Origin: Zobellia uliginosa
Lineage (GTDB): Bacteria; Bacteroidota; Bacteroidia; Flavobacteriales; Flavobacteriaceae
Assembly (NCBI RefSeq): GCF_900156625.1
Contig: NZ_FTOB01000002.1
Coordinates: 180,275 to 244,274 of the forward strand
DNA length: 64,000 bases
Direction: 5' to 3'
Below, piece by piece: positions 13,974 through 43,230 of this stretch. Numbering within the stretch: the stretch's first letter is position 1; each line of letters starts with the position of its first letter. The notes below the pieces were generated by a model. That model ran no database searches. It saw nothing but the letters and a program-made list of their open reading frames with translations, and was not told the origin of the DNA. The translations under genes and the position numbers were made by a program.

Positions 13974-14027
13974 AAGCCCTCCATAGGAATAGGTGTTGTA
14001 TTGCAGTTGTGGGGACTTTCGCCCTCC

Positions 14028-14132
14028 AAGAAACATCCCCCGCCCTGTGCCCCCACCTTCGAAGCAGTGCACTGAGCCTGCCGAAGTGGGGGATTTTAGC
14101 ACGAGCGTGACGCTTGCGCTAGCGGGGGTGTT
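14028..14132. repeat. Dispersed GC-rich repeat, full-length copy
   Basis: The unit begins with CATCCCCCGCCCTGTG, contains CTGAGCCTGCCGAAGTGGGGG and ends with GCACGAGCGTGACGCTTGCGCTAGCGGGGG. The outer CCCCCGC and GCGGGGG segments are inverted, and GCGTGACGCTTGCGC forms an inner palindrome-like stem. Related copies occur at 14950, 16917, 35091, 36367 and 37927. Confidence 0.85.
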
Positions 14133-14766: not shown

Positions 14767-14949
14767 CGTTCTATTTTTTGTTTATGCTTTGTTAAAAGTG
14801 GATACGGACACAGACCTAAGATGAGGAGGGAGGTCTGGTCGTAGCAACTAAATTAGGCAATACGCAGCTAAAAATAGAAGGGCAACTATTAAAAAAAAGT
14901 GAAGGTTTAGTTATGTATCGATTGGGTGGTTGGGGCGTGTTGCAATTTA

Positions 14950-15046
14950 CATCCCCCGCCCTGTGGGCAGCCCCTTTAAAACCTTGTACTGAGCCTGTCG
15001 AAGTAGGGGGTGGCACGAGCGTGACGTTTGTGTTGGTGGGGGACAA
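14950..15046. repeat. Dispersed GC-rich repeat, left of the TcmP cassette
   Basis: The copy starts CATCCCCCGCCCTGTGGGC, continues with AGCCCCTTTAAAACC and GAGCCTGTCGAAGTAGGGGG, and ends with GCACGAGCGTGACG. It is nearly identical to the copy at 16917-17010, and the two enclose the three-Cys/TcmP gene pair as direct repeats. Confidence 0.88.
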
Positions 15047-15118: not shown

Positions 15119-15844
15119 TTACACACTTTGTTGTAATTCCAATTCAGGGATTTCGTCATAAGTTCGTCCGTTAAGTACTCGACCATTTTTCTTTTTATTT
15201 TTTCCGCCCCATTGTTTGAAGAAAAACGCAACATCTGCTTCTTCACATTGTTCTTGAATGTCAATAACCCAATCAGAATCCATTGGTCTTGGCGTATGTC
15301 CACTTTCTCCACCAACAATAACCCAATCAATTTTATCTAAATTAAGGTTTGGTAAAGGTCCGATTAAAGGTTCAAGAGATAAAAATTTCACTCTCGCATT
15401 TGTTTTTCTTAAAAAATCAATTCTATTTTCAACTTTCTGTTCTTCGACCGAAACACCCATCCAAATATTATGTGACCATTTTAATTCCTTGTGAACTTCC
15501 AGAAGTCTTTCCGCTCGTTTTGTCAAAACTTGAAAAACATGCCTTGGATTTTCATTCATTACATTAAAAACCTTCTTGATAAACTCTAAAGGAATGTCTT
15601 CATGAAATAAATCACTCATTGAATTCACAAAAACTATTTTGGCTTTTTTCCAAGTATATGGAACTTTCAATTCTTTTTCGTGAGTTCTGACTTTAAAATT
15701 GTCCTTGTATTTATCAACCCCCATTGCTTTTAAGCGTTTAGACATAATTTCTGCATAGCAAAATTTGCATCCTTGCGATACTTTGGAACAGCCTGTTGTA
15801 GGATTCCAAGTCATTTCTGTCCATTCTATGCTTGATTGTGCCAT
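15119..15844 (-). CDS. Phage Gp37/Gp68-like (DUF5131) three-Cys-motif protein
   Basis: This 241-residue protein matches the phage Gp37/Gp68 (DUF5131) family: it starts SSIEWTEMTWNPTTGC and has the SLEPLIGPL, VIVGGESGH and FFFKQWGG segments. The three cysteines C19, C26 and C29 (CX6CX2C) give the family its name and probably hold a metal or an iron-sulfur cluster, since the fold resembles radical-SAM proteins. No enzymatic reaction is established. The upstream tcmP gene ends one base before this ATG, so the two are translationally coupled. AT-rich composition differs visibly from the PUL genes, which suggests acquisition. Confidence 0.88.
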   Translation of the reverse strand: MAQSSIEWTEMTWNPTTGCSKVSQGCKFCYAEIMSKRLKAMGVDKYKDNFKVRTHEKELKVPYTWKKAKIVFVNSMSDLFHEDIPLEFIKKVFNVMNENPRHVFQVLTKRAERLLEVHKELKWSHNIWMGVSVEEQKVENRIDFLRKTNARVKFLSLEPLIGPLPNLNLDKIDWVIVGGESGHTPRPMDSDWVIDIQEQCEEADVAFFFKQWGGKNKKKNGRVLNGRTYDEIPELELQQSV

Positions 15845-16702
15845 TTAATTTGAGGTGTTATATTTTTCTATTATGTCGTTTGCAATCTTTCGAGCGGTTT
15901 TATTATTTGAAACCATATAAAAATGAAACATTATTGAGTTAGATTTATTTTTGAGAATATATGGATTTGTTACGAATGTAAATAATTCTTTAAGTCTTTT
16001 CTGATATAATTCAGCTGACCTTTCTATTGCTTTTTCTTCTTTGTTTGTAACAACTTCATCTCCAAATAAAGTAGGCACAATTGTTTGTGAGTAAAAATAA
16101 TCTAGGATTTCTTTTTTGGGCATTCCGAGAAAAGTCTCCAATCTCATTATCCACGCATCAGAAATTCGACCATCTTTTTTCAATAATCTATTAACACCCA
16201 TTCCAGTTGGAACTAATATCCAAGCATCAACTTTTAATTCTTGTAGAGCAATTAAAGATTTCCAATTCACTTGCATTCCACACGGGTCGATATAAGCTAA
16301 AACTCTATACTTTTTTCCTTTTTGAGTTTTAAGAAATTCTGACATAGATTGTATTTTCTCGTTACAATCAGTATTAACTACATTTATTGTTTTGTGGTTG
16401 TAGTTTTGCACCACTTTTTCTATTAATTCATCTGCTTTTTCGATTTCCTTTTCAACAAAATAGTATCTATCAAAAGGTCTTGGCTCATCAATATCTAAAA
16501 TTCGTTTCGTTGCACCAATTATTATTTTTTGATTTTCATCATTCCCTTTTTTTATAAATCCACTACCTGCAAATCCATCAAAGTAGAGTAGTTTCCAACC
16601 AAATCTATCTGCAAATTTGTCCATTATTGTCAGATACGCTTTCGCATATTCAACAAGTATTTCTATTTTGGCTTCAGTCCAATCTCCTCCGAATTTATTC
16701 AT
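15845..16702 (-). CDS. tcmP: Three-Cys-motif partner protein TcmP
   Basis: TcmP is the fixed partner of the Gp37/Gp68-like three-Cys protein. The 285-residue protein has the family's N-terminus (GGDWTEAKIEILVEYAKAYL). It also has two motifs like those of Rossmann methyltransferases: YFDGFAGSG (glycine-rich loop) and AYIDPCGM (DPPY-like position). A nucleic-acid-modifying role is inferred from those motifs; nothing is proven for the family as far as I know. It abuts its partner gene directly. A 130-base AT-rich block that is also found 5' of two other accessory genes lies just upstream. Confidence 0.88.
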   Translation of the reverse strand: MNKFGGDWTEAKIEILVEYAKAYLTIMDKFADRFGWKLLYFDGFAGSGFIKKGNDENQKIIIGATKRILDIDEPRPFDRYYFVEKEIEKADELIEKVVQNYNHKTINVVNTDCNEKIQSMSEFLKTQKGKKYRVLAYIDPCGMQVNWKSLIALQELKVDAWILVPTGMGVNRLLKKDGRISDAWIMRLETFLGMPKKEILDYFYSQTIVPTLFGDEVVTNKEEKAIERSAELYQKRLKELFTFVTNPYILKNKSNSIMFHFYMVSNNKTARKIANDIIEKYNTSN

Positions 16703-16870: not shown

Positions 16871-16916
16871 ATTGGTTTTGTGTTGGGGAGAGGGGCGATT
16901 TTCGTTCTCTAAAGGA

Positions 16917-17010
16917 ACACCCCGCCCTGTGGGGAGCCCCTTTAAAACCTTGTGCTGAGCCTGTCGAAGTGGGGGTGACACGAGCGTGACGCTCGCGCCA
17001 GCAGGGGGTA
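16917..17010. repeat. Dispersed GC-rich repeat, right of the TcmP cassette
   Basis: The copy has CACCCCGCCCTGTGGGGAGC, CCCCTTTAAAACC, GAGCCTGTCGAAGTGGGGG and CACGAGCGTGACGCTCGCGC in the same order and orientation as the copy at 14950. The rest of the 413-base gap to the next gene holds only the AT-rich block and A/T-rich leader sequence. Confidence 0.88.
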
Positions 17011-18388: not shown

Positions 18389-19220
18389 TTAGTGACATTG
18401 TAGGGTGAATTTGATTTTTTCTGATTTTTCTTCATAGAAAACATAAATTAATCCAACATCTCCCCACATTAATCCAGCATTGTCTTCCGAGTCTATTTGA
18501 AACAATAGTTTTAGTGGGTTTCCTTCGCTGTCTGTTGGTGTAGATTCTCCTTGAACCCATTTGGGATATCCCCCCAAGTTGGCTTTGATAATCTTGTTCT
18601 CCAATAAGTTTAGTAACAATTTGGTCATAACTACCCCAAGGTTCGTCTTCGTCTAAAACACAAGACATTTTAGAGGCATTACGGCAATATAAATCTATTC
18701 CTTCCCAGTCAGGTAAAGATTGGGTCGAACTGAACTTTATTTCGCAATATCTTGATTTTTCTAGTTCACTTGGTGTATCGATAAGCTTGATATTTCCTTT
18801 TTCAATTTTTTTATAAATTTTCACCAACCATCCATCGTCTGAAGTGTCCCAAGGCATCTCATCCCAATCGTAATAGAATTGAATGAGCTCTATACTTTTC
18901 GGTAGTTTTAAATCGGTAGAATTGAATACTTGAAAAATGAATTCTAAATTTTTGCCCTTTTTATTTGTTGGCCATACTTCACCTTTTTCAAAATAGGGCC
19001 GGCCACCGAAATGTGATATAAATTGAGCATTTTCAGGCGGTCTTGAAGCTGATAAAACCTCCAATTTCGTTGCGGTTCTAATTAAGGGTTTTACCAAATT
19101 CTCCAGGTCGGAAATCGTCTTTAAATTCAATTGGTTTAGTTCATTTCGATATTGGTCAAAATGCGATTCAGTTTTCGGTTTTTCTTTTTTACCACTAAAT
19201 AAATTCTTCCAAAAGCTCAT
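18389..19220 (-). pseudogene. DUF1963 (YwqG-like) gene, frameshifted at a run of six C
   Basis: The intact reading frame would give about 276 residues of the DUF1963/YwqG family (function unknown, usually cytoplasmic). The N-terminal part is normal (GGRPYFEKGEVWPTNKKGK, LIQFYYDWDE) up to SQLGG. The frame then shifts, and the family's C-terminal motif (LGGYPKWVQ, then LLFQIDSEDNAGLMWGDVG) continues in another frame to a stop at 18389. The junction falls exactly on the C run 18570-18575 (G run in the gene); five instead of six bases would restore the frame. Either a sequencing or assembly slip, slippage-based phase variation, or recent inactivation could explain this. Without correction the product is 262 residues with a wrong tail. 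Confidence 0.85.
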
Positions 19221-19341: not shown

Positions 19342-19520
19342 GGCAGTTATATGAAGGGGAAGCGCGAGAATACCGTAGGCCCTGTTTTCAGAACGTTGAT
19401 AAAGTTCATGGGACACGGAAAATAAACACCATAGGAATGGCACAGGCCAACAAGGTGATGCAACTCTCATCTGCTAAAACTACACTTATGGGTAGAATAG
19501 TATTCTTTTCTAAGTACTAA
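19342..19520 (+). pseudogene. Remnant of an IS1182-type transposase C-terminus
   Basis: Translation of 19360-19422 gives KRENTVGPVFRTLIKFMGHG. After a one-base frame change at the A run near 19420 it gives KINTIGMAQANKVM, then a stop near 19518. This pattern matches what I recall of the C-terminal end of Bacteroidota IS1182-family transposases (TVEPVFGTL..FMGM..VNT.G..QANK). Only about 60 residues survive and they are frameshifted. It fills the 326-base gap left of the ThiF-like gene and marks an old insertion at the left edge of the peptide-system region. Confidence 0.6.
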
Positions 19521-19546: not shown

Positions 19547-20302
19547 ATGCAAGAACGATATCAACGAAATAGGATATATATTGATGATAAAGAGCAAGAA
19601 ATTGTTAAAGATTATCCGATAATCCTGGCCGGAAGTGGAATAGGGAGTGTAATTGCCGAATGTGCCTTGCGTTTAGGGTTTGAGAATATCACCATTATAG
19701 ATGGCGACAAGGTAGAACGATCTAATTTGAATCGGCAAAACTATACCGAAGACGATATTTCTTCTTCGAAAGTAGAGGCTATAAAGTCCAGATTAAAGGC
19801 TATTAATAATGAAGCTAATATCAAGGTTTACAACAGTTTTATAACAGAAGCCAATGTAGAGGAATTTGTAAAGGGCCATAAAGTAGCCATTAATGCGCTA
19901 GATTTTACGTCGGATATTCCATTGCAATTTGATAAAGTTTGTCAAGAAAACAATATTCCGGTAATTCATCCGTACAATTTAGGGTGGGGCGGACTTGTTA
20001 CGGTAATTGCACCCAATAGTATAGGTTTATCTGTCATTGCAAAACCAGATGAGAAATTCAATGAGGTAAATATGGTCGAATACATGTCAAGTTATATGAG
20101 GTTCTGGGGAAACCCTCAAGATTGGATAGATGAGATCATAGAGAAATACAAAAGCGAAAAAGAAAGTCTGCCACCACCACAACTTTCAATTGCTTCTTGG
20201 AAAGTTGCCGCTATGTGCACCCATATTCTTTTTAATATTGCTACGGGAAAACCGGTCAAAAAATTTCCTGAATTTTATTTGTCGACCATATTAAATTCTT
20301 GA
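19547..20302 (+). CDS. ThiF/E1-like adenylating enzyme
   Basis: A 251-residue protein of the ThiF/MoeB/E1 superfamily, which adenylates the C-terminal carboxylate of a small protein or peptide with ATP. The nucleotide-binding loop is ILAGSGIGSVIAE, followed by ITIIDGDKVERSNLNRQ (Asp and Arg of the ATP site) and the helix with SSKVEAIKSRL. The paired Cys-x-x-Cys zinc sites of some relatives are absent. The C-terminal ~80 residues (with DWIDEIIEKYKSEKES) do not match ThiF/MoeB and may hold the substrate. MccB, which modifies microcin C7, is the best known peptide-directed member. It is separate from the downstream operon (convergent LuxR gene between), so membership in the peptide system is only inferred. 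Confidence 0.8.
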   Translation: MQERYQRNRIYIDDKEQEIVKDYPIILAGSGIGSVIAECALRLGFENITIIDGDKVERSNLNRQNYTEDDISSSKVEAIKSRLKAINNEANIKVYNSFITEANVEEFVKGHKVAINALDFTSDIPLQFDKVCQENNIPVIHPYNLGWGGLVTVIAPNSIGLSVIAKPDEKFNEVNMVEYMSSYMRFWGNPQDWIDEIIEKYKSEKESLPPPQLSIASWKVAAMCTHILFNIATGKPVKKFPEFYLSTILNS

Positions 20303-20339
20303 ATATAGGTAATCTTATATTTGCCCCGACCTCAAAACC

Positions 20340-21098
20340 TTAAATGAGCTTATTATTGGTGGCATACATGATAGCTTCCGATATGTTGGTCACTTCTAAT
20401 TTGTCGAATAACTTTCTTCTGTGAAATTTTACCGTATCGGGCGATACGTAAATTGATTCGGCTATCTCGTTTATAGTTAAACCTCTAGTCGACAATTGCA
20501 ATATTTCTTTTTCCCGGGATGAGAGCTTTATTTTTTCATCCGCTTTCCAGAAGTCACCCTCTAGGTTATACTTGAAAATTTTATGATTTCCCTTTTTATA
20601 AATTTTAATATTCCCCGCTTGTCGTTCGGCCGATAAGGATACAATACATACGGCTTTCCATATTTTGCCGTTTGCGGTCAAAAATATTGGGGTCAATTTT
20701 TGATTTATTAGAATGATTTTTCCTTCTTGGTTTTTTATGTGGAAGTCATATGAAATGGTATGTTCCTTGCGTTCTTCTAAAGGAATTCTGTCATAAAACT
20801 CGAAGCCCACCTTGTTGATTTTAATGAGTAAATCCAAATCGGACTTAACTACATACTTGAAGTAGAAAGCATATCCCATCTCCTTGATTTCTTCTGCCGT
20901 ATGGCCACAAAGGAACAAGGGATTGTCCGAGACGTATTCAAACCCTCTTTTTTGATAATCAATTACATATATACTTTTGTAGGTGGCTCTTGAGAAGGCT
21001 TTTATAGCTTCTAAATAATCTAAGGCTTGTCCTTGGTTTTCTTTTGGGATTTCACCAACTGAATTCTTAAAGGAAAAGAAATCTTTCATGTCAGTCAT
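20340..21098 (-). CDS. PAS-like sensor with LuxR-type DNA-binding domain
   Basis: A 252-residue one-protein regulator. Residues about 30-160 look like a PAS fold (VIDYQKRGFEYVSDNPLFLCG, KNQEGKIILINQKLTPIF). The last ~65 residues are a GerE/LuxR helix-turn-helix (LSSREKEILQLSTRGLTINEIAESIYVSPDTVKFHRRKLFDKL). There is no classical autoinducer-binding domain. This architecture is frequent in Flavobacteriia. It is divergent from the acyltransferase gene at 21261, and the shared 162-base intergenic region holds an imperfect palindrome. It is therefore the likely local regulator of the peptide operon. Met4 (21089) is an alternative start. Confidence 0.88.
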   Translation of the reverse strand: MTDMKDFFSFKNSVGEIPKENQGQALDYLEAIKAFSRATYKSIYVIDYQKRGFEYVSDNPLFLCGHTAEEIKEMGYAFYFKYVVKSDLDLLIKINKVGFEFYDRIPLEERKEHTISYDFHIKNQEGKIILINQKLTPIFLTANGKIWKAVCIVSLSAERQAGNIKIYKKGNHKIFKYNLEGDFWKADEKIKLSSREKEILQLSTRGLTINEIAESIYVSPDTVKFHRRKLFDKLEVTNISEAIMYATNNKLI

Positions 21099-21158
21099 AG
21101 AGTCGGTTTGGTGTAGGTTTTTGTGGTTATAAATATAGCTTTTTTCTTATCATTTTGA

Positions 21159-21180
21159 AAACTACACTTTTGTATAGTTT
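21159..21180. promoter_or_regulatory. Candidate LuxR-type operator (imperfect palindrome)
   Basis: AAACTACAC-TTTT-GTATAGTTT is a 22-base sequence with 9-base arms matching at 8 positions. It lies 81 bases before the acyltransferase start and 61 bases from the regulator start. A weaker copy of its left half (AAACTACCATTTTGTGTAAAC) follows at 21196-21216. The position between divergent genes suggests binding by the LuxR-type regulator; no experimental support. Confidence 0.5.
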
Positions 21181-21260
21181 CAGATAATCAACTAAAAACT
21201 ACCATTTTGTGTAAACAAACATTACTGAATGCCTAATAGATTTGGAAGTAAAACAAGAAT

Positions 21261-21944
21261 ATGATACATCCAAAGAACTATTTAGAAAGATTAGGGGCAG
21301 ATTGTCTATACGACTTGGCCAAGTTTGTGGTCAATGAAAATTTCAAGCACCACACCAGTAGCGTTTATCCAGAAAACTATACAAAGGAAATAGGATCTAT
21401 CTTGAAAGAAGAGAAAGATTATTTCAACAATGCCCAGATTTTTGTTTCTAAGGATGAGGACAATTCCATAATAGGATCGATCAGGGTATTACGGTGGAAT
21501 TATACGGACGTATTGCCTATACAGAAAATATTCGGCATTAATCCATTGCTCCTAAATGGCCATTATATTAAAAGTTCCATTTGGCATATTGGCAGGTTTG
21601 CCATAAAGAAAGGGGTAAATGATATTAATTTATTTAAGAGACTTATGGTCTGCGCCATAGCCCCTATATGTCAAGATAAAAATGCCGTAGTCTATGCAGA
21701 ATGTGACAGTAAACTTTTAAGGGTAATGTTGGCGTTGGGGATCAAGGCCGTGCCTGTAGAGAAACCTCTTAATTATCTAGGCTCTGAAACTATTCCGGTG
21801 AGTATGCGGTACAACGGCCTAATCGATTTCTATAATAAGAATAGGTCTTTGGTTCCTGTAGATTTTTTAGGTTCTACCACTGCTCAGCAACTACCTAAAA
21901 GGGTAGTTTCCCAACCTCTTCAGCATAACTACTCTTTAGTGTAG
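21261..21944 (+). CDS. FeeM/LuxI-like N-acyltransferase (GNAT fold)
   Basis: A 227-residue protein resembling the N-acyl amino acid synthase (FeeM) and autoinducer synthase group, GNAT-fold enzymes that transfer an acyl chain from acyl-ACP to an amino group. The supporting signature is SIIGSIRVLRWNYTDVLPIQ followed by WHIGRFAIKKGVND, which matches the family pattern of a strand with Arg, an LP turn, and an E/IsRFAV-type strand. A Leu-rich helix (RLMVCAIAPIC) comes next. The ~40-residue tail is low in complexity and may be flexible. Located directly upstream of two peptide precursor genes on the same strand. It could acylate the peptides, an amino acid, or make a signal for the adjacent LuxR protein. 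Confidence 0.65.
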   Translation: MIHPKNYLERLGADCLYDLAKFVVNENFKHHTSSVYPENYTKEIGSILKEEKDYFNNAQIFVSKDEDNSIIGSIRVLRWNYTDVLPIQKIFGINPLLLNGHYIKSSIWHIGRFAIKKGVNDINLFKRLMVCAIAPICQDKNAVVYAECDSKLLRVMLALGIKAVPVEKPLNYLGSETIPVSMRYNGLIDFYNKNRSLVPVDFLGSTTAQQLPKRVVSQPLQHNYSLV

Positions 21945-22094
21945 AGAAGTACAAAAGACAAACATATAGTTTTATGCTAATAAAATAAATAAGCATATCA
22001 AGATATAACGCATACTCTTGGCCGAGAGATAGACCGAATAGCAATTAATGTCTTAAAACTAAGATTGGATCTAATAATTGTAATTTTTTTAAAA

Positions 22095-22244
22095 ATGAAA
22101 AATTCAAACCCAGAGAAATTTTTAGATACTCAGGAATTATCAGCTCTTGAGAATCAAACATTAAAAGGAGGTACTTCAATGATCGAATCGGTCGAAGAAG
22201 AAGACAAAAAGAAAAAAGAGAAAAAAGTAACCGTTGAAAAGTAA
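22095..22244 (+). CDS. Double-glycine precursor peptide 1
   Basis: A 49-residue peptide too short for usual ORF callers. Residues 1-26 form a leader ending in LSALENQTLKGG, the double-glycine motif cut by C39 peptidases (consensus LS..EL..I.GG). The predicted core is 23 residues, starting TSMIESVEEED and ending in a Lys/Glu-rich tail with KVTVEK. It has no Cys. The adjacent peptide 2 has exactly the same first 23 residues, although seven of those codons differ by silent changes. That shows the leader is under protein-level selection and is a real gene. A C39-type ABC exporter is encoded 2 kb downstream. Function (antibacterial or signal) unknown. Confidence 0.88.
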   Translation: MKNSNPEKFLDTQELSALENQTLKGGTSMIESVEEEDKKKKEKKVTVEK

Positions 22245-22249
22245 TAATT

Positions 22250-22402
22250 ATGAAAAATTCAAACCCAGAGAAATTTTTAGACACTCAAGAACTTTCGGCT
22301 CTTGAAAACCAAACATTGACAGGTGGTAGTTCTATGGTAGAATCACTTGAAGATGCAGGTAACAAAGACAAAGAAAAGAAAAAAGAAGTTGTTGTAAAGT
22401 AA
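22250..22402 (+). CDS. Double-glycine precursor peptide 2
   Basis: A 50-residue paralogue of peptide 1, starting 5 bases after its stop. Leader residues 1-23 are identical, then Thr replaces Lys24 and Gly-Gly follows at 25-26. The predicted 24-residue core starts SSMVESLEDAG and ends with a Lys-rich VVVK. Core residues shared with peptide 1 are [ST]SM[IV]ES[VL]E[DE], so the N-terminal third of the core is conserved and the middle diverges. It also lacks Cys. A perfect hairpin comes 4 bases after its stop codon and would let the two peptides be made in excess over the enzymes downstream. Confidence 0.88.
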   Translation: MKNSNPEKFLDTQELSALENQTLTGGSSMVESLEDAGNKDKEKKKEVVVK

Positions 22403-22406
22403 GTCT

Positions 22407-22440
22407 TAATAAGGTGTCGGTGTATGCCGACACCTTATTA
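22407..22440 (+). terminator. Hairpin attenuator between precursor peptides and enzymes
   Basis: The arms TAATAAGGTGTCGG (22407-22420) and CCGACACCTTATTA (22427-22440) form a perfect 14-bp stem with a 6-base loop. No long T run follows, so partial termination or mRNA-end protection of the peptide transcript is more likely than full termination. This is the usual arrangement in bacteriocin operons. Confidence 0.8.
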
Positions 22441-22464
22441 TATATGGAAAAATGATAATATAAA

Positions 22465-23772
22465 ATGATGGAAGATACTAAAAAAGCATTGACCAAAGAC
22501 TGGTGGCTATTATTTATAGAAGAAAATTTTTCTTTCACTGAGACTAAAGTATTTAAAGACGTTCTCTCTGAATCTTTGCAGGAAAATTTATATAAAGGAG
22601 TGAAAGAGATGTTGCAATCAAGAATCAACCGTCTTGATATTTCAAATGGTTTTAGACTATATCAAAAGGGAGAGGAAATTGGTGATTCCAAGGTCCGAAA
22701 CCTTATAAGGGAAAACAAATTAGGCAGCCAAGAATCAATTGAATCGTATTGCAAAAGGATATTTGGGGAAAATTATGGCATTATCACCAATTATGGTGAG
22801 CGTCATTCGGATATTTTAGCTGAAAACGTTTTAGAGGCGATACAACCTCTTTTTGATATTATTGGTATTCCTCCTTGGGGAGTGGAACTTACAACCTTTA
22901 TAGGTAATTATGGGTGGACTCCCTTGGGGATACATACGGACCAAAGAGGGGAAAATGTTTTGCATTTCCATCTAGGCCCTGGTAAAAAAACAATGTACAC
23001 TTGGAATGAAGATGTCTATAAAGAGGTAGGTAAGGGCGTTTCAAACAATAAAGATGTAGAGCCCTTGCTCGAATACGCCCAAAAATATGAGTTTGGCCGA
23101 GGTGATCTTTACTATATGCCTTGGAATAAGCACCATATAGGTTTTTCCGGCGACTTTTCTATAGGGGTTACATTATGGTTTAATAATCCGACTAAATGCT
23201 CTTTTTCAAAACTAATGATCGAGTCGATCAAAAACATGTTTTTAAAAGACGATATGAATATTATAGAAAGTCAATTGGATTACCTGAACAACGAACAAAC
23301 GTTTAACGACTTCATCGGCACTTTAAATATTTCTTCCAAAACATTAAACGAACCCTTAGTAGACTTTTTGCAGTATACCTATAAAGAATATAAAAAATGT
23401 CTGTTGAGTAATGGCGGTTGGCAAAATATTCCCTTAAGGCATCACAAGAAGGTAGAGAACACGAATCATTGTTTTCCAGAATTTGAATTCAAAAAAATTG
23501 TCGGTAGCAATGTCTTCAAAATTACACATGAGAAAGAGGAAGATCGCCTATTGGTTTATGTTAGGGGGGTACGGCTATCCTTTAAGTATTTTGAAGGCCT
23601 GGTAAAGATTATTGATATGGTCAATACCGGTAAGGTAATTGAAGTTCAAGATGTTATAGAAGAAATTGACGACTTGCCAAAAGATGTGGTGATTTATTTT
23701 TTAAAAACCTTGGTAAATAATAGAGGCCTTAAAATTCAAGAGGCCCCGTTAGAGGAAATTCAATTTCAATAG
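22465..23772 (+). CDS. JmjC/cupin-like Fe(II)/2-oxoglutarate oxygenase, probable peptide-tailoring enzyme
   Basis: A 435-residue protein whose middle part has the double-stranded beta-helix oxygenase signature. H157-x-D159 (GIHTDQRGENVLHFHLGPGK) supplies two iron ligands, and GDLYYMPWNKHHIG supplies the distal His (H223 or H224). The GD-LY-P-H pattern is that of JmjC/cupin-4 ribosomal oxygenases (RoxA/YcfD, Mina53), which hydroxylate protein side chains. A ~200-residue C-terminal part (with YVRGVRLSFKYFEGLVKIID) may be a winged-helix/substrate-binding region, as in ribosomal oxygenases. It lies between the precursors and the exporter, so hydroxylation of the peptides is inferred. Cores offer Lys, Asp, Glu, Asn and Thr as targets. 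Confidence 0.75.
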   Translation: MMEDTKKALTKDWWLLFIEENFSFTETKVFKDVLSESLQENLYKGVKEMLQSRINRLDISNGFRLYQKGEEIGDSKVRNLIRENKLGSQESIESYCKRIFGENYGIITNYGERHSDILAENVLEAIQPLFDIIGIPPWGVELTTFIGNYGWTPLGIHTDQRGENVLHFHLGPGKKTMYTWNEDVYKEVGKGVSNNKDVEPLLEYAQKYEFGRGDLYYMPWNKHHIGFSGDFSIGVTLWFNNPTKCSFSKLMIESIKNMFLKDDMNIIESQLDYLNNEQTFNDFIGTLNISSKTLNEPLVDFLQYTYKEYKKCLLSNGGWQNIPLRHHKKVENTNHCFPEFEFKKIVGSNVFKITHEKEEDRLLVYVRGVRLSFKYFEGLVKIIDMVNTGKVIEVQDVIEEIDDLPKDVVIYFLKTLVNNRGLKIQEAPLEEIQFQ

Positions 23773-23824
23773 GCCTTTAACCTTCGATTTGTTGAATACG
23801 TACTGTGAAACTAAATCTAATAAA

Positions 23825-24328
23825 ATGAATTGCATTGAATTATATGAAACGTATCGGATTAAAAAAAAGAAAGACTATAAATATGTGTTCCAGACAAACG
23901 AAGGTGTGATTTATGAATTTAGTTTTAATAGGTCCGGTATACATTATAACTCTTGCTCAACAAATAAAAATATTCTAGAGCTTACCTTGAAATGTAGCTC
24001 AGTTTGTCCTAAAAAGGATTATAGAACCTTGACAACAATTGTTCATTTTGTTAAGGAGTTCTTGATAGAATATGATGCATTTTATTTACAAACGCATAAT
24101 CAGATCGAACACAAAAATACAAGAACGAAAAAACGGCGAGGATTTTCTAGGTTGAAACTTTGGACACGCATTTCAAATCGATACTTTGAGCAGTGCGATT
24201 TCCTGATGAGTCCAAATCTAAATGATTCTTATACACAGGATATACCTTGTCTCTTAATAAAAAAAGAGGCCAAGCATTATCGACAAATAGTGAGCAATTT
24301 TCATAAGTATTGTAATACGGAATTTTAA
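23825..24328 (+). CDS. Small protein resembling DUF6169
   Basis: A 167-residue protein from the ATG at 23825 (MNCIELYETY); a longer start at 23789 exists but adds twelve residues that look unrelated. No signal peptide. It has the order of short segments I associate with DUF6169: an N-terminal beta part (YKYVFQTNEGVIYEFSF), a helix (LTTIVHFVKEFLIEYDAFYLQ), a basic stretch (RTKKRRGFSRLKLWTRI) and a late LLIKKEAKHYRQIV strand-helix. It has no assigned function. Its stop overlaps into the region immediately before the exporter ATG (adjacent, no gap). This tight coupling suggests it assists the exporter or acts on the precursor. Confidence 0.6.
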   Translation: MNCIELYETYRIKKKKDYKYVFQTNEGVIYEFSFNRSGIHYNSCSTNKNILELTLKCSSVCPKKDYRTLTTIVHFVKEFLIEYDAFYLQTHNQIEHKNTRTKKRRGFSRLKLWTRISNRYFEQCDFLMSPNLNDSYTQDIPCLLIKKEAKHYRQIVSNFHKYCNTEF

Positions 24329-26524
24329 ATGATAGGGTATAAAAACAGAATAAAACTTGTACGTCAGCACGATTTAATGGATTGTGGACCAGCTTCTTTG
24401 AGTATGGTGACCTATTTCTATGGCAATAAATTCCCATTGCATTACCTAAGGGAATTATGCCAAATCGGAAAGGATGGGGTTTCTATGTCGGGAATAATTC
24501 ATGCCGCTAAAAAAATAGGAATGGAAACGTATTCCACCCGGTTGAATTTAGATCTATTGGTTAAAAAATTTACCAAGCCTTGTATTCTATATTGGAATAA
24601 AAATCACTTTCTTGTATTGGAATCCATTAGTAATAAGGGAGGTAATGTTAATTTTCATATTGCAGATCCCGCTCATGGAAAAGTGGTCTTGTCAGAAAAA
24701 GATTTTAAAGAACCATGGCTGAAAGGGGGGCAATCTGGTGTTGCTTTATTCTTGTCTCCGACCCATGATTTTTTCTTAAAGAAAAACAATAGCAATGTAA
24801 AAAATCATTTCAAGACCATCGTAAATTTTTTAAAGCCTTATAAGAAAAAGATATTGGTTTTGTCTTTTTTGATACTGTTGGGTAGTGCATTCAGTGTGAC
24901 ATTGCCATTTTTAACAGAAGCGTTGATAGATTATGGGGTTACTCCAAAAAACCTGAATTATATAAGCCTTATTCTTCTTGCCCAGTTATTTGTCTTTATA
25001 GGGATTATGACCATTAATATCTTAAGAAATTGGTTTACCTTAATTATCGGCACAAAACTCAGTGTAGATATTGTTTATTCGTATCTAGACAAGGTACTTA
25101 AACTTCCATTGAGTTTTTTCGACACAAAAAACTCTGGCGATTTTAATCAGAGAATACAAGATAATATTAAAGTAGAAAGATTCCTCACTTCTGACAGTAT
25201 CTTAACGGTCTTTTCCGCCTTATTACTGTTAGTGTATTCGGGTATTCTATTTCATTATGGCACTTCGCTTTTCTTAACTTATATAGGTCTGACTCTCGTT
25301 TCGGTCTATTGGTCTTATTACTGGTTAAAAAAGAGAGAGGTAATAGACTATAAAATATTTCTTGCCAGATCCGAAAATCAAGAAGCTATTTATGAGTTTT
25401 ACAACGGCATTAGAGAAATGAAGCTCAACCAATATGAGAGTTATAAAAAAAATCAATGGGTTGAATTACAAAACAACTTGCTACAGGCGAATATCAAATC
25501 ATTAAAAATTGAGCAGTTTCAGTCTATCGGATTTACCTTTTTCAACCAGCTCAAAAATATTTTAGTCACATTTTTGGCAGCTAATTATGTGGTGAAAGAC
25601 ATTATGACCCTTGGGGCTTTGTTAAGTGTTTCATATATCATTGGTCAAATGAATTCGCCAGTACATCAATTATTATCGTTTTTCAGATCTCAACAAGATG
25701 CCTTTTTAAGTTTTAATAGATTAAGCGAGGTATATACCCAAGAAAATGAAGAAAAGGAATCCGATAAAAAACTTGACCCCGAAAAAACTCCTGTAGATAT
25801 TAAAATACAAAATGTCAATTTCAAATATAATGTACTTTCCCATAAATATATTCTTCAAGATATCGATCTAACCATACCACGAGGAAAGATTACGGCCATT
25901 GTAGGGCATAGTGGAAGTGGAAAAACAACGTTGATGAAATTACTATTGAAGTTTTTTCCTCCCTTATCGGGGAAAATCTTTTATGGTTTAGATGAAATAA
26001 ATGGATTGTCTTCGCAAAGTATTAGGGAAAATTCAGGAATAGTGATGCAAGATGGCTATATATTCAATGATACCATTGAAAGGAATATAGCACTGAAAGA
26101 TAAAATAGTCGATAAAGAAAAATTAGAAAAGGCACTTGGGGCGGTTAATCTGTTAGGCTTCGTCAATTCATTGGCCCTAAAGGAACATACCAAAATAGGT
26201 TCGGGAGGGAATGATCTTTCGGGCGGTCAAAAACAAAGGATACTAATTGCACGGGCAATTTATAAAAATCCTAAATATATATTCTTGGATGAAGCCACTT
26301 CAGCTTTAGATGCTACCAATGAAAAAGAAGTACATAATAATTTGCAGAAGCTGTTTAAGGATAAAACGGTGGTTATAATAGCACATCGTTTAAGCACTGT
26401 TCAAAACGCCGATCAGATTATTGTTTTATCAGAAGGAAAAATGGTAGAACAAGGGACGCATACAGAATTAATAGACAAAAAAGAATTTTATTACACACTG
26501 GTTAAAGATCAATTAAATATATAA
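24329..26524 (+). CDS. C39-peptidase-containing ABC exporter (PCAT)
   Basis: A 731-residue peptidase-containing ABC transporter that removes double-glycine leaders and exports the core peptide. The C39 domain (1-130) has Q13, catalytic C19 in LMDCGPAS, H93 in NKNHFLVL and D113 in IADPAHG. A six-helix membrane domain covers about 160-440. The ATPase has Walker A GHSGSGKTT (526-534), the signature LSGGQ (630-634), and Walker B FLDEATSALD. All catalytic residues are present. It starts right after the preceding stop. In Gram-negative bacteria such exporters normally work with an HlyD-type adaptor, and none is encoded here. The partner outer-membrane gene is instead of TonB-receptor type. Confidence 0.95.
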   Translation: MIGYKNRIKLVRQHDLMDCGPASLSMVTYFYGNKFPLHYLRELCQIGKDGVSMSGIIHAAKKIGMETYSTRLNLDLLVKKFTKPCILYWNKNHFLVLESISNKGGNVNFHIADPAHGKVVLSEKDFKEPWLKGGQSGVALFLSPTHDFFLKKNNSNVKNHFKTIVNFLKPYKKKILVLSFLILLGSAFSVTLPFLTEALIDYGVTPKNLNYISLILLAQLFVFIGIMTINILRNWFTLIIGTKLSVDIVYSYLDKVLKLPLSFFDTKNSGDFNQRIQDNIKVERFLTSDSILTVFSALLLLVYSGILFHYGTSLFLTYIGLTLVSVYWSYYWLKKREVIDYKIFLARSENQEAIYEFYNGIREMKLNQYESYKKNQWVELQNNLLQANIKSLKIEQFQSIGFTFFNQLKNILVTFLAANYVVKDIMTLGALLSVSYIIGQMNSPVHQLLSFFRSQQDAFLSFNRLSEVYTQENEEKESDKKLDPEKTPVDIKIQNVNFKYNVLSHKYILQDIDLTIPRGKITAIVGHSGSGKTTLMKLLLKFFPPLSGKIFYGLDEINGLSSQSIRENSGIVMQDGYIFNDTIERNIALKDKIVDKEKLEKALGAVNLLGFVNSLALKEHTKIGSGGNDLSGGQKQRILIARAIYKNPKYIFLDEATSALDATNEKEVHNNLQKLFKDKTVVIIAHRLSTVQNADQIIVLSEGKMVEQGTHTELIDKKEFYYTLVKDQLNI

Positions 26525-26529
26525 GAATA

Positions 26530-26862
26530 ATGGGATTTAAAACATTGACAATCATTTTATTAGTTTTAGTTTTTTTGAGTTGTAGTACAACTAACCCTGT
26601 CTCATCGTCTAAGTATGAAACAGTATTCTGTACAAGCATAGACAATAGTGAGTATGCTTCGATCTATCGGATTCTTAGAGATAATTTTAATGATTTTCCA
26701 AAGAAAAGGGGTAAGAAAGTTACCTATGTAAAAAACAATATAGATTATTCGTTTCGAATAAGCTTGAAAAATAAACGCTTTAAAATGAAATATAGTAGCA
26801 ATAAGGGATACAATGACCAAATAAGCGCAATGAAGTCGAAGATTGAAAATATGGTGAAGTAA
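26530..26862 (+). CDS. Small lipoprotein of the peptide operon
   Basis: A 110-residue protein with a lipoprotein signal (VLVFLSCSTTN, Cys ~18). The remainder has alternating polar and hydrophobic segments and a Lys-rich middle (FPKKRGKKVTYVKNN). No family was recognised. It starts 5 bases after the exporter stop and ends 10 bases before the TonB-type receptor, so it belongs to the same transcript. An immunity or receptor-accessory role is possible, given that lipoproteins are frequent immunity factors for exported peptides, but nothing in the sequence proves it. Confidence 0.75.
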   Translation: MGFKTLTIILLVLVFLSCSTTNPVSSSKYETVFCTSIDNSEYASIYRILRDNFNDFPKKRGKKVTYVKNNIDYSFRISLKNKRFKMKYSSNKGYNDQISAMKSKIENMVK

Positions 26863-26872
26863 GGAGAAATTT

Positions 26873-29242
26873 ATGAGAATTAGTATAATACTTTGTGTTT
26901 TGTTGCATACGGGATTGTTATATTCCCAAAATAGCATTTTAGGTAAGGTTATAGATCAAACGGGAGAGCCATTACCCTATGCCAACATCATCTTATATCA
27001 TAATGGAAATACTGATGAATTGGTAACGGGTACGGTAAGTGATGACAAAGGGGAATATGTCTTTTTAGATGTTTCAAATGGAACTTATCTGTTGGAGGTT
27101 TCTGTCCTAGGGTTTAAAACCGAAAAATCAAATCCCTTTACACTTTCCGATAAAAACCAAGATGTAAGGTTTAATTTTACTTTAAAGGAGGAGGCCCAAG
27201 CCTTGAACGAGGTAGTCGTGAAAAGCAATCGCCCGGTAATCCGACAAACCGCGGAAAAATTGATAGTTGATTTAGAGCAATCCGAAATGGTAAGTTCCAA
27301 CTTACAGGATGTCATGAAAAAAGTACCAGGGATTATCGTTACCAATGGCAACATTACTTATGGAGGGCAACAAGGCGTGACCATTTTGATCAATGGCAAA
27401 ACGACCGAGTATATGGATATTTCATCCTTGTTGCGCGACCTCCCCGCAGATAATATCGCAAAGGTTGAATTGGTACAACAACCTGGTGCCGAGTTTGACG
27501 CAGAGGGATCAGGTCCATTGATCAATATCATCCTTAAAAAAAATGTAAGGCTGGGCACGAATGGAAACCTTAAACTGTATTCGGGATATGACAACCGACC
27601 TGAGTATGGGGTGAGTGGTTCGATTGCCAGTTATAAGAACAAGATCAATTGGCAATTAGGTGGCGGTTATAGAAAATCGGCGTGGAGAGAAGACCTCTTT
27701 ATAACCAGAAGGATCAATGGGGAGGTTTATGATCAATCGACCATTTCACCATACAATCCAAAAACGTATAGATTCAATGGGGGATTGGACTATTACATAA
27801 ATGAGCATCACACCATAGGGTTTGGAACACGGTTTATTCATACCGATTCCGATAGGATTGCATCTAACAGTACAGAAATCATTGAAGACTCGTCATCGGA
27901 AACCTTGCTCACTGAAAATAGCTTTGACCGTAATAGGAAAACCTATAACATAAACCCGTACTATAAGTTCGAAGATGAGCAAAACAAGTTCATTCTAGAT
28001 TTTGATTATGTTGATTATAATAACGATAATGTTAATGATTTATATCAGCTCGGGCAGAGTGAGATATCATACGACGACCAACGGTATTTTCAGAATGGAA
28101 AATATCGGATACTGACTTATAAGGGAGACTATAAACGTACTTTTGGGGAAGGTTCCAATTGGATGTTCGGAACTAAATATTCAAGGGTTTCCACTGATAG
28201 TGACTTGAACTCTTTTTTCCGGAACACTGATGGTAATTTCATTTTGGATGCTGATCAAAGCAATGGTTTTTTAGTGGATGAAGATATCTTGGCCATATAT
28301 TCCAAGTTGGTAAAAAAATGGGAAAAATGGTCGTTTTCCGGTGGGTTGCGATGGGAAAACAGTAATACGAAGGGAACATCTACAAACCCCAATGAGGTAA
28401 GAAGTAGGCGAATTTCAAAATTATTTCCTAGTGCCAGTATCGATAGAAAAATCAATGACAAATTGGGGGCTAACCTGTCGTATAGCTATCGAATTTTAAG
28501 GCCTTCCTATAATTCCCTAAATGCATTTGTATATTATTACGACCCCTATACCTTTGAGCAGGGAAACCCGAATTTAAAACCTGAATTCACCAATAGTTTT
28601 CAATTTAATTTGACTTATGCCAATCAACCTTTTTTTAGTATAGCATATAAAAATACAGAGGATGCCTTGTTCGAAATTATATCGCAGAACGATGTCACGG
28701 CCCAAACCTCTCGGTCGGTAATCAACCTTGCTAAAAGGGAGAATTGGAGCTTTAGGGGTTTTGCTCCGGTCGACTTTCTTCATGGCTTGGACGGTTATGC
28801 CGGAATTATCGTAAACTATAATAAATATGCTTCGGAGAGTTTGACCCCAAAACTCGATTTGGATAAGTGGAGTTTTACGTGGTATACAAACCTGGAGTAT
28901 AGCCTGCCTTGGGATATCAATTCAGAATTGACGGGATACTATACCACTGGGGGACTACAAGGGCAAATAGAACACGATTGGTTAGCGGGACTCAGTTTTG
29001 CCCTCGGTAAAAAGTTTATGGATGACAAGCTTAAAATAAATTTGGGAATTGAAGAGATTTTGAATCGAAAATTTATAGGTAGTATTAACTATGATAATAT
29101 TGATGCCGATATTATAAGTGATTGGTCCCGTCAAAATGTCTATTTTCAGTTGACATACAATTTTGGTTCTAATTTTAATAAAGAAAAGGCCGAAAGGAAT
29201 CCTTCCGAAGAGGAGCAAGACCGAATAAAGGATAATAATTGA
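26873..29242 (+). CDS. TonB-type outer-membrane receptor (OMP beta-barrel 3 family) of the peptide operon
   Basis: A 789-residue outer-membrane protein with a signal peptide (cleavage near LLYSQ). A carboxypeptidase-regulatory-like domain (SILGKVIDQTGEPLPYANI) and a plug (TAEKLIVDLEQSEMV, SNLQDVMKKVPGI, INGKTTEYM) come first, followed by a large barrel. The barrel has the RPSYNSLN / FEQGNPNLKPEFTN motif of the Bacteroidota OMP_b-brl_3 group. The C-terminus is unusual: the last strand (YFQLTYNFGSNFN) is followed by a charged ~20-residue tail. It is the last gene of the operon, followed by a terminator. It could export or take back the mature peptide, or be its target; direction of transport is not decided by sequence. 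Confidence 0.9.
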   Translation: MRISIILCVLLHTGLLYSQNSILGKVIDQTGEPLPYANIILYHNGNTDELVTGTVSDDKGEYVFLDVSNGTYLLEVSVLGFKTEKSNPFTLSDKNQDVRFNFTLKEEAQALNEVVVKSNRPVIRQTAEKLIVDLEQSEMVSSNLQDVMKKVPGIIVTNGNITYGGQQGVTILINGKTTEYMDISSLLRDLPADNIAKVELVQQPGAEFDAEGSGPLINIILKKNVRLGTNGNLKLYSGYDNRPEYGVSGSIASYKNKINWQLGGGYRKSAWREDLFITRRINGEVYDQSTISPYNPKTYRFNGGLDYYINEHHTIGFGTRFIHTDSDRIASNSTEIIEDSSSETLLTENSFDRNRKTYNINPYYKFEDEQNKFILDFDYVDYNNDNVNDLYQLGQSEISYDDQRYFQNGKYRILTYKGDYKRTFGEGSNWMFGTKYSRVSTDSDLNSFFRNTDGNFILDADQSNGFLVDEDILAIYSKLVKKWEKWSFSGGLRWENSNTKGTSTNPNEVRSRRISKLFPSASIDRKINDKLGANLSYSYRILRPSYNSLNAFVYYYDPYTFEQGNPNLKPEFTNSFQFNLTYANQPFFSIAYKNTEDALFEIISQNDVTAQTSRSVINLAKRENWSFRGFAPVDFLHGLDGYAGIIVNYNKYASESLTPKLDLDKWSFTWYTNLEYSLPWDINSELTGYYTTGGLQGQIEHDWLAGLSFALGKKFMDDKLKINLGIEEILNRKFIGSINYDNIDADIISDWSRQNVYFQLTYNFGSNFNKEKAERNPSEEEQDRIKDNN

Positions 29243-32720: not shown

Positions 32721-34694
32721 TTATTCCTTTTTAAGGTCTTTGTTTGACCAGAGTTTTTTCCATTGCCATAACCAAATATGTTTTCTTGTAGCAGAATAAT
32801 CCATAATATTTTGCGTAGCTTTCTTTTTGTAACCATAGGTTGCGCTATTATCAAAACTATGTCTTAACCCCATACAATGTAATAACTCGTGTGTTACAGT
32901 TGCCTTACGTTTACCAGCAAACATAATAGCTGATTGAGAGTTGAAGCCGTTAGCATATCCTGCTAGTTTTACAATTTTCACTACTTTATCCGTTCTACCA
33001 CCTGTATCTCCAAAGAAGAACACTTTAAAATAGTCCTTATATTTTGGCAGTTCTTTGTTTAAGGTCATTTCCATATACTCGGCTAAACTATTTCCTCCTT
33101 TATTATGATATTTGTTAAGTATTTTTTTACCATTTAGATCTAATAATGTATAACTTTTGTTAAAATCGGGATATTTTGGTTTTTTAGTTGTTGGATCTAA
33201 TTCAGTCAACTTAAAATCAATTTCGTCTAATTCTAGTTTGGTATAGGCTTGTTTTAAATAACGCGCTAACATCTCCTTTTCAGGTTTTCCTGTCTTGTTT
33301 GTTGTATTACCTTTTAATTTTATACCACTATATAGTTCAGTTTCAATTTTTACAAAAACTACCTGAACTTTTTTACGATTGGCTTTATCATTTTTTATGA
33401 TGTTAAGTTGTCCTAATTGGCGTTTTTGGTACATTACTTTTATAACTTGGTCTGTACTAAACTCTTTAATACACTCAATGGTTAAATGGTCGTCCAACCT
33501 TTTTTTTCCTTTGCTTTGTGCGGGTATTTTTTCAGTATTTAGTTTAAAAAGTGTTTTGTCGTACTCAAAAGTTAAATCTAGCTTTTTAGGGTTTTTAATT
33601 GTCTCTATCTGTAAACTTAATATCTGCGTTTCTTTTGGGTATATGGTCAACCAACTTTGTATGTATTCATATGCGCTACCATCTGGGTTTTTATGCCAAT
33701 CTAGAGGTATGGTATCGTAAATATCACATTTTAATTCTTTGTATTTAAAGTCTGTTTTATATTTGGTAAATTTATTTACGCCCTTTATGGATTTGTTTGT
33801 GCCTAAGATGTCTTTATAGGTCAGTTTGTCGTCCTTGTCCTTTTTATCTCGCATAAAATCAAAACCGTATTCGCCATCGTAATTTTTGCTTGGTCTAAAA
33901 TCTACAATTACCTTTGGAGGAGGTATAACTTGCAGAACATTACTTTCTTTATTGGTTCCCTTATAGCTTACCTTGGCAATTAAACCGTCTATTTCTGCAA
34001 TTCTAAAGTCATCCCATTCTTCTTTGATTTTTAGGGAGCTTATTTGCACAGTTCCTTCATCGGTTAAATATTCGGTAAATGTTAATGATTTCGTGCCCTC
34101 TTCGAACTCGGTACCATCTTCTTTTTCAATGATGATTTCAACGCTACCGCCTTCGGCGTTCGTTACTTTGACCTCCAATGCTACTTTTTCTTGGTAGGTG
34201 GTCTCTTCAATTGTTTCTCCTTCAACAGTTTTCCACTTTACCGATGCCAATTTTGGTTTTGGCACAATGGATTCGGGCGTTATGTTATTTGCCAAATTAG
34301 AAAGGTCGGTTATCTTCCATGGTTTTTCGAATACCATATAGCCTATTCGTAGTATGCCTGGGGAGAAAACGTAGGTATCGATATTGATAGAATGCCCATC
34401 ATAATTTCTTTGGTAGTTTACTATATAGGTGTCAAAGAACTCATAATCGATAAGTTTTGACGTTCCATCGCGGTTATAAAACCGAATATGACCGTTGCAC
34501 ATAGTGTCGGGCGCAACGGCTAGCCTCAATAAATCAGTATTGTCATCTGCTTCTAAGATAACGGTAAATAATCCTCCATGTGGAACTGAAGTTGGCTTAA
34601 AAGTATTGGAGTTGACCCTTTGGTAGAATTGAATATTGGTGTCTAAAATGTTTCTTTTTCTCCCATTAATAGAAAGTTTTGCTAAAAAGCTCAT
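32721..34694 (-). CDS. Evolved TssD (Hcp) fused to a metzincin metalloprotease, T6SS effector
   Basis: This 657-residue protein begins with a complete Bacteroidota-type TssD/Hcp tube domain (1 to ~130: MSFLAKLSINGRKRNILD, PHGGLFTVILEADDNTDLL, IRFYNRDG). An Ig-like segment follows (about 150-260), then an unassigned region. The C-terminal domain has the zinc-protease motif H602-E-L-L-H606-C-M-G-L-R-H612 and a Met-turn at M631 (NIMDYS), the hallmarks of metzincins. No other T6SS genes lie nearby, so it must use a secretion apparatus encoded elsewhere. As part of the injected Hcp tube it would deliver a protease into a neighbour cell. The AT-rich coding sequence and its repeat-flanked position suggest horizontal transfer. 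Confidence 0.9.
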   Translation of the reverse strand: MSFLAKLSINGRKRNILDTNIQFYQRVNSNTFKPTSVPHGGLFTVILEADDNTDLLRLAVAPDTMCNGHIRFYNRDGTSKLIDYEFFDTYIVNYQRNYDGHSINIDTYVFSPGILRIGYMVFEKPWKITDLSNLANNITPESIVPKPKLASVKWKTVEGETIEETTYQEKVALEVKVTNAEGGSVEIIIEKEDGTEFEEGTKSLTFTEYLTDEGTVQISSLKIKEEWDDFRIAEIDGLIAKVSYKGTNKESNVLQVIPPPKVIVDFRPSKNYDGEYGFDFMRDKKDKDDKLTYKDILGTNKSIKGVNKFTKYKTDFKYKELKCDIYDTIPLDWHKNPDGSAYEYIQSWLTIYPKETQILSLQIETIKNPKKLDLTFEYDKTLFKLNTEKIPAQSKGKKRLDDHLTIECIKEFSTDQVIKVMYQKRQLGQLNIIKNDKANRKKVQVVFVKIETELYSGIKLKGNTTNKTGKPEKEMLARYLKQAYTKLELDEIDFKLTELDPTTKKPKYPDFNKSYTLLDLNGKKILNKYHNKGGNSLAEYMEMTLNKELPKYKDYFKVFFFGDTGGRTDKVVKIVKLAGYANGFNSQSAIMFAGKRKATVTHELLHCMGLRHSFDNSATYGYKKKATQNIMDYSATRKHIWLWQWKKLWSNKDLKKE

Positions 34695-34978: not shown

Positions 34979-35050
34979 TATACTGCTGTGTTTATCACCA
35001 ATGGCCTGACATGTACAGCCTGTTGCCAGGTCTTCAATTTACCGTTTTTC

Positions 35051-35178
35051 TTTTTTGGTCAGTGTGTTGGTTTTTGTTGGGGTTAGAAATACATCCCCCG
35101 CCCTTCGGGCACCCCCTTCGAAGGGGGATTCATTGTCTGTTGCAGGCACGAGCGTGACGCTCGCGCTAGCGGGGGAGG
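35051..35178. repeat. Dispersed repeat, long copy with conserved left flank
   Basis: The left flank TTTTTTGGTCAGTGTG..GTTGGTTTTTGTTGGGGTTA and ACATCCCCCGCCCTTCGG (35051-35108) recurs at 36326-36383 with three mismatches that I count. The right part has CCTTCGAAGGGGG (palindrome) and GCACGAGCGTGACGCTCGCG ending GCTAGCGGGGG. Confidence 0.88.
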
Positions 35179-36095: not shown

Positions 36096-36325
36096 GATTA
36101 TTATAAATATTTGGTTCGTCGGCTTCTGGTGGTATAGTTAGGCCGCCGTGGTCCGGCTAGTACGGACAACGGGATGTCCCCCGCCGGTGAGGGATTCTTA
36201 TGGAGGCCGATATAAACGGTCGCTTTGAAAATGTTATGGCCCGAACTATTTATGGGGTGGGGCACAGGTAAGATAAATTCCATATTGAATTATGATTTTT
36301 CAGACCTTAATTTATAATTTTTAAC

Positions 36326-37890: not shown

Positions 37891-37926
37891 CTTTGCCCTC
37901 GGTTTTGTCTATTCGTCTTCGAAAGA

Positions 37927-40696: not shown

Positions 40697-40725
40697 GAGG
40701 TATAGCAGGCATTATGTTATACCTC
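40697..40725. terminator. Palindrome spanning the subtilase stop codon
   Basis: GAGGTATA (40697-40704) pairs with TATACCTC (40718-40725) across 13 bases. The right arm overlaps the last codons and stop of the subtilase gene. It could be a terminator or the edge of a repeat unit; there is no T run. Confidence 0.45.
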
Positions 40726-43227: not shown

Positions 43228-43230
43228 AGA

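Follow-up and report, generated by a model that had tools for sequence, protein, structure and literature searches.

A 64,000-nucleotide stretch of the Zobellia uliginosa genome (contig NZ_FTOB01000002.1, positions 180,275 to 244,274; hereafter the window) carries a gene block in which two modules are probably joined: a portable signal switch, composed of a FeeM/LuxI-like N-acyltransferase (AT), a ThiF (E1-like) adenylating enzyme and a divergent PAS-LuxR regulator, and an output resembling a cluster for ribosomally synthesized and post-translationally modified peptides (RiPPs), in which double-glycine (GG) peptides accompany a JmjC oxygenase and a C39-peptidase exporter (Table 1). The initial annotation of the window had listed these genes together with a lipoprotein and a TonB-type receptor, and all of them are open and intact at the positions in Table 1. 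It had described a single block that left out the E1-like enzyme; the genes instead form two modules, and the E1-like enzyme belongs to the second, the switch.

The peptides, oxygenase and exporter form a conserved unit

A scan of the whole genome collection yielded 54 oxygenase loci, among which L005-L030 (26 loci) form one group and L032-L057 a sister group. The hosts of the first group include Tenacibaculum, Aquimarina, Chryseobacterium, Flavobacterium, Altibacter, Kordia, Riemerella, Pedobacter and Chitinophaga. A peptide with a GG leader lies within 1-2 kb of the oxygenase in 23 of the 26 loci, 22 of which were found with a leader profile and one (L020) by eye, its poly-Q tract being interrupted by an assembly gap; L015 and L026 end at contig ends, and L025 shows no GG peptide. 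The C39 exporter is likewise present in 23 of the 26, with L007 and L026 cut and the match in L025 weak. Neither a GG peptide nor a C39 exporter is found in L032-L057, a clade of solo oxygenases from Flavobacteriia and relatives, in which the iron motif is often HxE in place of HxD; as these loci have no peptide and no equivalent exporter, they were ruled out as members of the same system. From genus to genus, GG peptide, JmjC oxygenase and C39 exporter are conserved together. The genome search suggested in the initial annotation bears out this part of the linkage that it proposed, and the peptides remain beside the oxygenase in related loci.

The GG peptides are not chance open reading frames (ORFs), and the leader profile gives 38 matches at E<1e-3 among 11,069 small ORFs, every one of which adjoins such an oxygenase. 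In the leader motif FLxxxxLSxLE...GG, residues L10, G25 and G26 are invariant and F9 is kept in more than 90%, while the cores cannot be aligned. The two precursors of about 50 residues noted initially are retained at 49 and 50 residues with this conserved leader, except that peptide 1 starts at ATG 22095 and not at the TTG upstream. Their leaders share 87% nucleotide identity over 26 codons, and their cores differ. No precursor of the 30 compared with curated leader models (lanthipeptide L1a, TIGR04149 and NHLP) scores above a cut-off, the best relevant E-value being 0.42, and no NCBIfam model covers the precursor peptide or the oxygenase.

The cores are of low complexity, being poly-Q (seven loci), KE-rich, Q/R/V-rich, K-Q, RVT-like or His/Asp-rich, with poly-Q, KEKK, VRVTERV and CKCKCK as examples across the family. 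All seven poly-Q tracts are encoded by mixed CAA and CAG codons; therefore the residue, rather than a DNA repeat, appears to be kept, and mere codon-repeat noise was ruled out as their source. When core type is mapped onto the oxygenase tree, 10 changes are required, compared with 25.4 for shuffled labels (none of 200 shuffles was as low), and the poly-Q cores fall on one side of a branch. An additional precursor paralogue with the core CKCKCKCK is encoded at L005:9662-9814, beside KEK-type paralogues of the same operon. In the public assembly of L020, a run of N interrupts the poly-Q stretch of the precursor (L020:8978-9490); further assemblies may therefore contain poly-Q precursors that are fragmented or overlooked.

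A JmjC oxygenase with the ribosomal oxygenase fold

The oxygenase of the window has no Pfam or NCBIfam match above cut-off, and the JmjC/cupin assignment made initially holds through its relatives, 23 of 40 of which match JmjC_2, and through its fold. The AlphaFold model (predicted local distance difference test score, pLDDT, 92) comprises a double-stranded beta-helix with an HxD...H triad and a YcfD-like winged helix, and aligns with YcfD over 342 residues (Z 17.9, root-mean-square deviation 7.6), followed by NO66 and MINA53. This match comes from the fold search only, a profile search of solved chains by sequence giving no true match. H157, D159 and H224, together with K175, are present in all exporter-type copies examined, the one exception being the second L026 copy. 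Tandem second copies occur in L018, L023, L026 and L028, and that of L026 has lost the iron ligands and resembles a pseudoenzyme partner.

Compared with the ribosomal oxygenases YcfD, NO66 and MINA53 (PF08007), the window enzyme shares the fold over its full length, including the winged helix, and the HxD...H triad, but it has only about 13% identity, falls below the Pfam cut-off and is encoded in a peptide-export operon. In the model, residues 354-418 appear to follow the strand-strand-strand-helix-helix-helix order that defines the RiPP recognition element (RRE), although YcfD likewise has a winged helix. Bacterial JmjC-RRE fusions in RiPP-like contexts were reported in 2025, and in the accessible part of that report (PMC12710340) they combine a JmjC_2 domain with a beta3-alpha3 domain in a RiPP context; the window group may be one of them; precursors, cores, exporter and regulator are not named in that part. 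BipG is a known case of a JmjC enzyme that hydroxylates a RiPP (PMC12707348). BipG/BpmG of the biphenomycin RiPPs (PMC12707348, PMC12257519) are likewise JmjC tailoring enzymes, which hydroxylate ornithine, but they assist chemistry carried out by MNIO and radical SAM enzymes on a different precursor, whereas here the JmjC enzyme is the only evident candidate for modifying the core. Because of the RiPP-like contexts of the JmjC-RRE fusions and the BipG precedent, leader-guided hydroxylation of the core is the likely role of the oxygenase.

The substrates of YcfD-type enzymes are folded ribosomal proteins, and solo relatives of the oxygenase occur without peptides. Both facts would fit a reading in which the peptides are exported unmodified, in the manner of bacteriocins, while the JmjC enzyme has another substrate, such as the exporter, the barrel or a ribosomal protein. 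We consider this unlikely, since the peptide is inherited together with the oxygenase, the core type tracks the clade of the enzyme, and the exporter clade is separate from the solo clade.

The acyltransferase, ThiF and PAS-LuxR genes are a separate cassette

ThiF, PAS-LuxR and the AT constitute a separate portable cassette that is independent of the peptide module. In 34 AT loci, the window included, PAS-LuxR is divergent from and adjacent to the AT in all 34, and an adjacent ThiF is present in 26. The AT is present in the window and in five of the 26 peptide-oxygenase loci and absent from 21. The AT profile matches 12 of 350 genomes in a family sample and 21 of 346 in an order sample; strong matches to the exporter-type oxygenase come from only three of those 350 genomes, one of which also has the AT, and 11 of the 12 AT-bearing genomes of the family sample have no exporter-type oxygenase. 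One genome (G978) has three AT copies. Elsewhere the cassette precedes class I lanthipeptide precursors accompanied by LanC-like proteins (L122, L132-L134), radical SAM enzymes of the cyclophane type (L119), NHLP precursors accompanied by export genes (L118; L124-L126, L128, L130, L076 and L081 are laid out alike), HTTM proteins, TauD with a phosphopantetheinyl transferase, or a carbamoyltransferase with a cupin.

The initial annotation had counted the AT as a part of the peptide class, which this distribution does not support, the AT otherwise standing with unrelated outputs. A role as peptide modifier was rejected on linkage, as the AT tracks LuxR and not the peptides. The AT does lie directly 5' of the peptide genes in the same orientation, and the Lys-rich cores would supply amines, so that fatty acylation of the core, as performed by GNATs in selidamides, could give a hydroxylated lipopeptide. 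This is very improbable, however, given the 21 peptide-oxygenase loci without the AT, the unrelated outputs and the linkage to LuxR in all loci; nor is the AT co-conserved with the precursor, as would be expected of a GNAT in a selidamide-type RiPP.

The LuxR-AT gaps of 18 loci yielded a palindrome, ACTACAC-N4-GTGTAGT, and a profile built from these sites was applied at a threshold of at least 13 bits. Of the 34 loci, 33 have sites 5' of the AT (17 of 18 among the new loci) and 19 have them at the 3' end of the AT; 5' of ThiF they occur in 16 of 26. Shuffles expect 0.00-0.04, and two control stretches inside the AT gave 0 of 34. The spacing between neighbouring sites is 38 bp in 29 of 37 cases. 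Exactly five sites are present in the 64 kb of the window, all of them at these three places (Table 1), and a looser pattern has 8 matches in the window against 0.31 expected. The peptide loci without LuxR contain one site in 325 kb. The gene layout is that of a putative synthase beside a divergent regulator with shared operators, and the placement of operators at three positions looks like positive feedback.

The putative chemistry of the signal

By Pfam, the AT matches FeeM (E 0.0011) and Autoind_synth (E 0.01), each below the cut-off. In the fold ranking, FeeM comes first (Z 16.1), followed by the N-acyl-homoserine lactone (AHL) synthases TofI, LasI, RpaI and BjaI (about 15) and generic GNATs (13-14). 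The best solved chain by sequence is LasI (E 0.15), whose WELSRFAI motif aligns with WHIGRFAI; with this departure from the conserved Glu/Ser-Arg motif and 15.8 bits for PF00765 against a cut-off of 24, the AT falls outside the LuxI family as defined by that model. ThiF has an invariant D119 in the adenylation motif, and its close solved structures are 9egb, 9egc and 9egd. Two other assignments of ThiF were rejected. As an E1 of ubiquitin-like conjugation or defence, its PADLOC E1-E2 matches are partial and weak, and neither a ubiquitin-like partner nor an E2 is seen in the block; as a PaaA-like peptide enzyme, it matches PaaA only remotely and is missing from most peptide loci.

Pairs of an N-acyltransferase and a ThiF-like cyclase, namely OxzAB, TyzACB and TrzAS, make acyl-oxazolones in Pseudoalteromonas and mycobacteria (PMC12856293, PMC10404671), and a corresponding pair of genes is present here. 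The oxazolone pathways, however, use a flavin oxidase, of which the block has none, and the pair here is coupled to PAS-LuxR and conserved operators. LuxI/LuxR systems are alike in synthase fold, divergent regulator, palindromic operators and apparent feedback, but here PAS replaces the LuxR ligand domain and ThiF is added. In Streptomyces scabies, according to the accessible part of a report (PMC4380410), co-overexpression of the PAS-LuxR protein CfaR with ORF1 gives more product than CfaR alone. This likewise couples a PAS-LuxR regulator to a ThiF protein, but ORF1 is a ThiF-nitroreductase fusion, and an adjacent acyltransferase is not mentioned in that part of the report.

The AT most likely makes a signal rather than modifying the peptide, because the cassette precedes unrelated outputs and has conserved operators, and because the AT resembles FeeM and LasI and, with ThiF, recalls the oxazolone synthases. 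The simplest reading would be that the PAS domain binds an N-acyl amino acid, perhaps cyclised. PAS domains sense many cues, and the AT-ThiF product might itself be a secreted bioactive lipid, with PAS-LuxR responding to an unrelated cue; acyl-oxazolones are known as cell lipids (PMC12856293). This alternative is quite unlikely, since the three-place operator layout, kept with unrelated outputs, looks like positive feedback and LuxR adjoins the AT in every locus.

Several observations weigh against a signal switch joined to a RiPP-like output. FeeM and the AHL synthases outrank generic GNATs by a small margin in the fold comparison of the AT (Z 15-16 compared with 13-14); eight of the 34 cassettes, chiefly NHLP-type, have no adjacent ThiF; and in L012 and L014 (Chryseobacterium) LuxR and an operator lie directly 5' of the peptide, the AT and ThiF being gone. 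The nitroreductase (flavin oxidase) of the known oxazolone pathways is absent from the genes of the block, and no one target residue is common to all cores.

Layout and acquisition of the block

Table 1. Features of the two modules and their operators in the window (position 1 is its first nucleotide).
Feature	Position	Strand	Evidence
Operator 5' of ThiF	19479..19496	+	ACTACACTTATGGGTAGA, 24.3 bits; profile from LuxR-AT intergenic sites
ThiF/E1-like adenylating enzyme (cassette)	19547..20302	+	PF00899 E 3.8e-33; solved relative 9egb E 3e-124
PAS-LuxR regulator, divergent (cassette)	20340..21098	-	GerE 9.1e-17; PAS_3 0.014, weak
Operator 1 upstream of AT	21161..21178	+	Operator profile
Operator 2 upstream of AT	21198..21215	+	Operator profile; 37 bp from operator 1
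FeeM/LuxI-like N-acyltransferase, AT (cassette)	21261..21944	+	Pfam FeeM 0.0011; model vs FeeM Z 16.1
Operator 1 at AT 3' end, ahead of peptide genes	21890..21907	+	Operator profile
Operator 2 overlapping AT stop codon	21928..21945	+	Operator profile; 38 bp from 21890 site
GG precursor peptide 1	22095..22244	+	49 aa, core TSMIESVEEEDKKKKEKKVTVEK
GG precursor peptide 2	22250..22402	+	50 aa, core SSMVESLEDAGNKDKEKKKEVVVK
15-bp hairpin between peptides and oxygenase	22407..22440	+	-23 kcal/mol, z -6.0
JmjC (ribosomal-oxygenase-like) Fe(II)/2-oxoglutarate oxygenase, C-terminal winged helix	22465..23772	+	AlphaFold pLDDT 92; YcfD Z 17.9; H157/D159/H224, K175
Small protein distantly like DUF6169	23825..24328	+	ORF listed from TTG 23789; relatives in L005, L006, L009
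C39-peptidase ABC exporter	24329..26524	+	PF03412 2.6e-31, PF00664, PF00005
Small lipoprotein-like secreted protein, 110 aa	26530..26862	+	hhalign to protein beside oxygenase in other loci
Outer-membrane beta-barrel, TonB-receptor-like	26873..29242	+	CarboxypepD_reg + OMP_b-brl_3; PF14905 3.2e-84

The block is probably acquired DNA, because its G+C content is low (33-39% across the block, compared with 45-50% in the flanks) and the oxygenase is found in none of the eight same-genus genomes examined. The hairpin ahead of the oxygenase gene is possibly a partial terminator or a processing site, and a promoter scan gave matches at chance level. The small lipoprotein is homologous to a protein of 116-143 aa that adjoins the oxygenase in poly-Q loci (hhalign probability 97.5, E 5e-12). 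The likeness to DUF6169 noted initially is retained through a relative only, the L009 member, which scores 21.1 bits against PF19666 and thus falls below the cut-off of 27; the ORF itself encodes 167-179 aa depending on the start, ATG 23825 being likelier than TTG 23789.

Other features of the window lie outside the two modules. An AAA ATPase and subtilase pair (40717-44208, minus strand) resembles the known anti-phage pair IetA (E 7e-74) and IetS (E 2e-41), and a second pair (15119-16702, minus strand; DUF5131 and partner) resembles the PADLOC candidates PDC-M41A/B (E 1e-128 and 9e-133). An Hcp/TssD domain with a long C-terminal fusion, in which a zinc-protease-like HELLHCMGLRH motif was seen by eye (32721-34694, minus strand), is possibly type VI secretion cargo. 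A DUF1963 gene (18389-19220, minus strand) appears to be split over two frames (18432-19220 and 18389-18628) and is likely frameshifted. Dispersed intergenic repeats (ACATCCCCCGCCCT...) lie in the low-G+C island at 14020-14092, 14936-15009, 16902-16975, 35045-35118, 36320-36466 and 37914-38004.

Discussion

In the proposed model, the AT would make an N-acyl amino acid, the carboxyl of which ThiF would adenylate and then probably cyclise in an oxazolone-like manner. PAS-LuxR would sense the product, bind the paired palindromes and turn on thiF, the AT and the operon behind the AT. The GG precursors would then bind the JmjC enzyme through their leaders, repeated Lys/Gln/Arg-type core residues would be hydroxylated, and the C39 exporter would cleave after GG and export the core, with the lipoprotein and barrel acting in the outer membrane.

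Neither the peptide family nor the cassette was found described in the open-access literature. The new parts are the precursor family with its JmjC enzyme and a LuxI/LuxR-like circuit with other chemistry and another sensor; each part has known relatives. A broader and more tentative proposal is that Bacteroidota may possess a new acyl amino acid/oxazolone quorum sensing, based on a FeeM/LuxI-like enzyme, ThiF and PAS-LuxR, which switches many RiPP clusters, one of them a leader-guided JmjC class with low-complexity (poly-Q, KEK, CKCK) cores.

For the peptide family, the JmjC oxygenase is the apparent defining enzyme, and its presumably exported poly-glutamine and KEK-repeat cores are absent from current precursor models. 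The operator pair offers a search key for silent RiPP clusters. For acyl-type signalling in Flavobacteriia, the cassette provides a concrete circuit of genes, operators and outputs. Quorum sensing in Tenacibaculum maritimum is controversial because C4-homoserine lactone (C4-HSL) was detected yet no synthase gene was found (reviewed in PMC9853564). An AT of the window type lies so far from LuxI that the usual model misses it, and, if the proposed reading is true, such a synthase could account for the AHL-like activity reported in Tenacibaculum without a LuxI gene.

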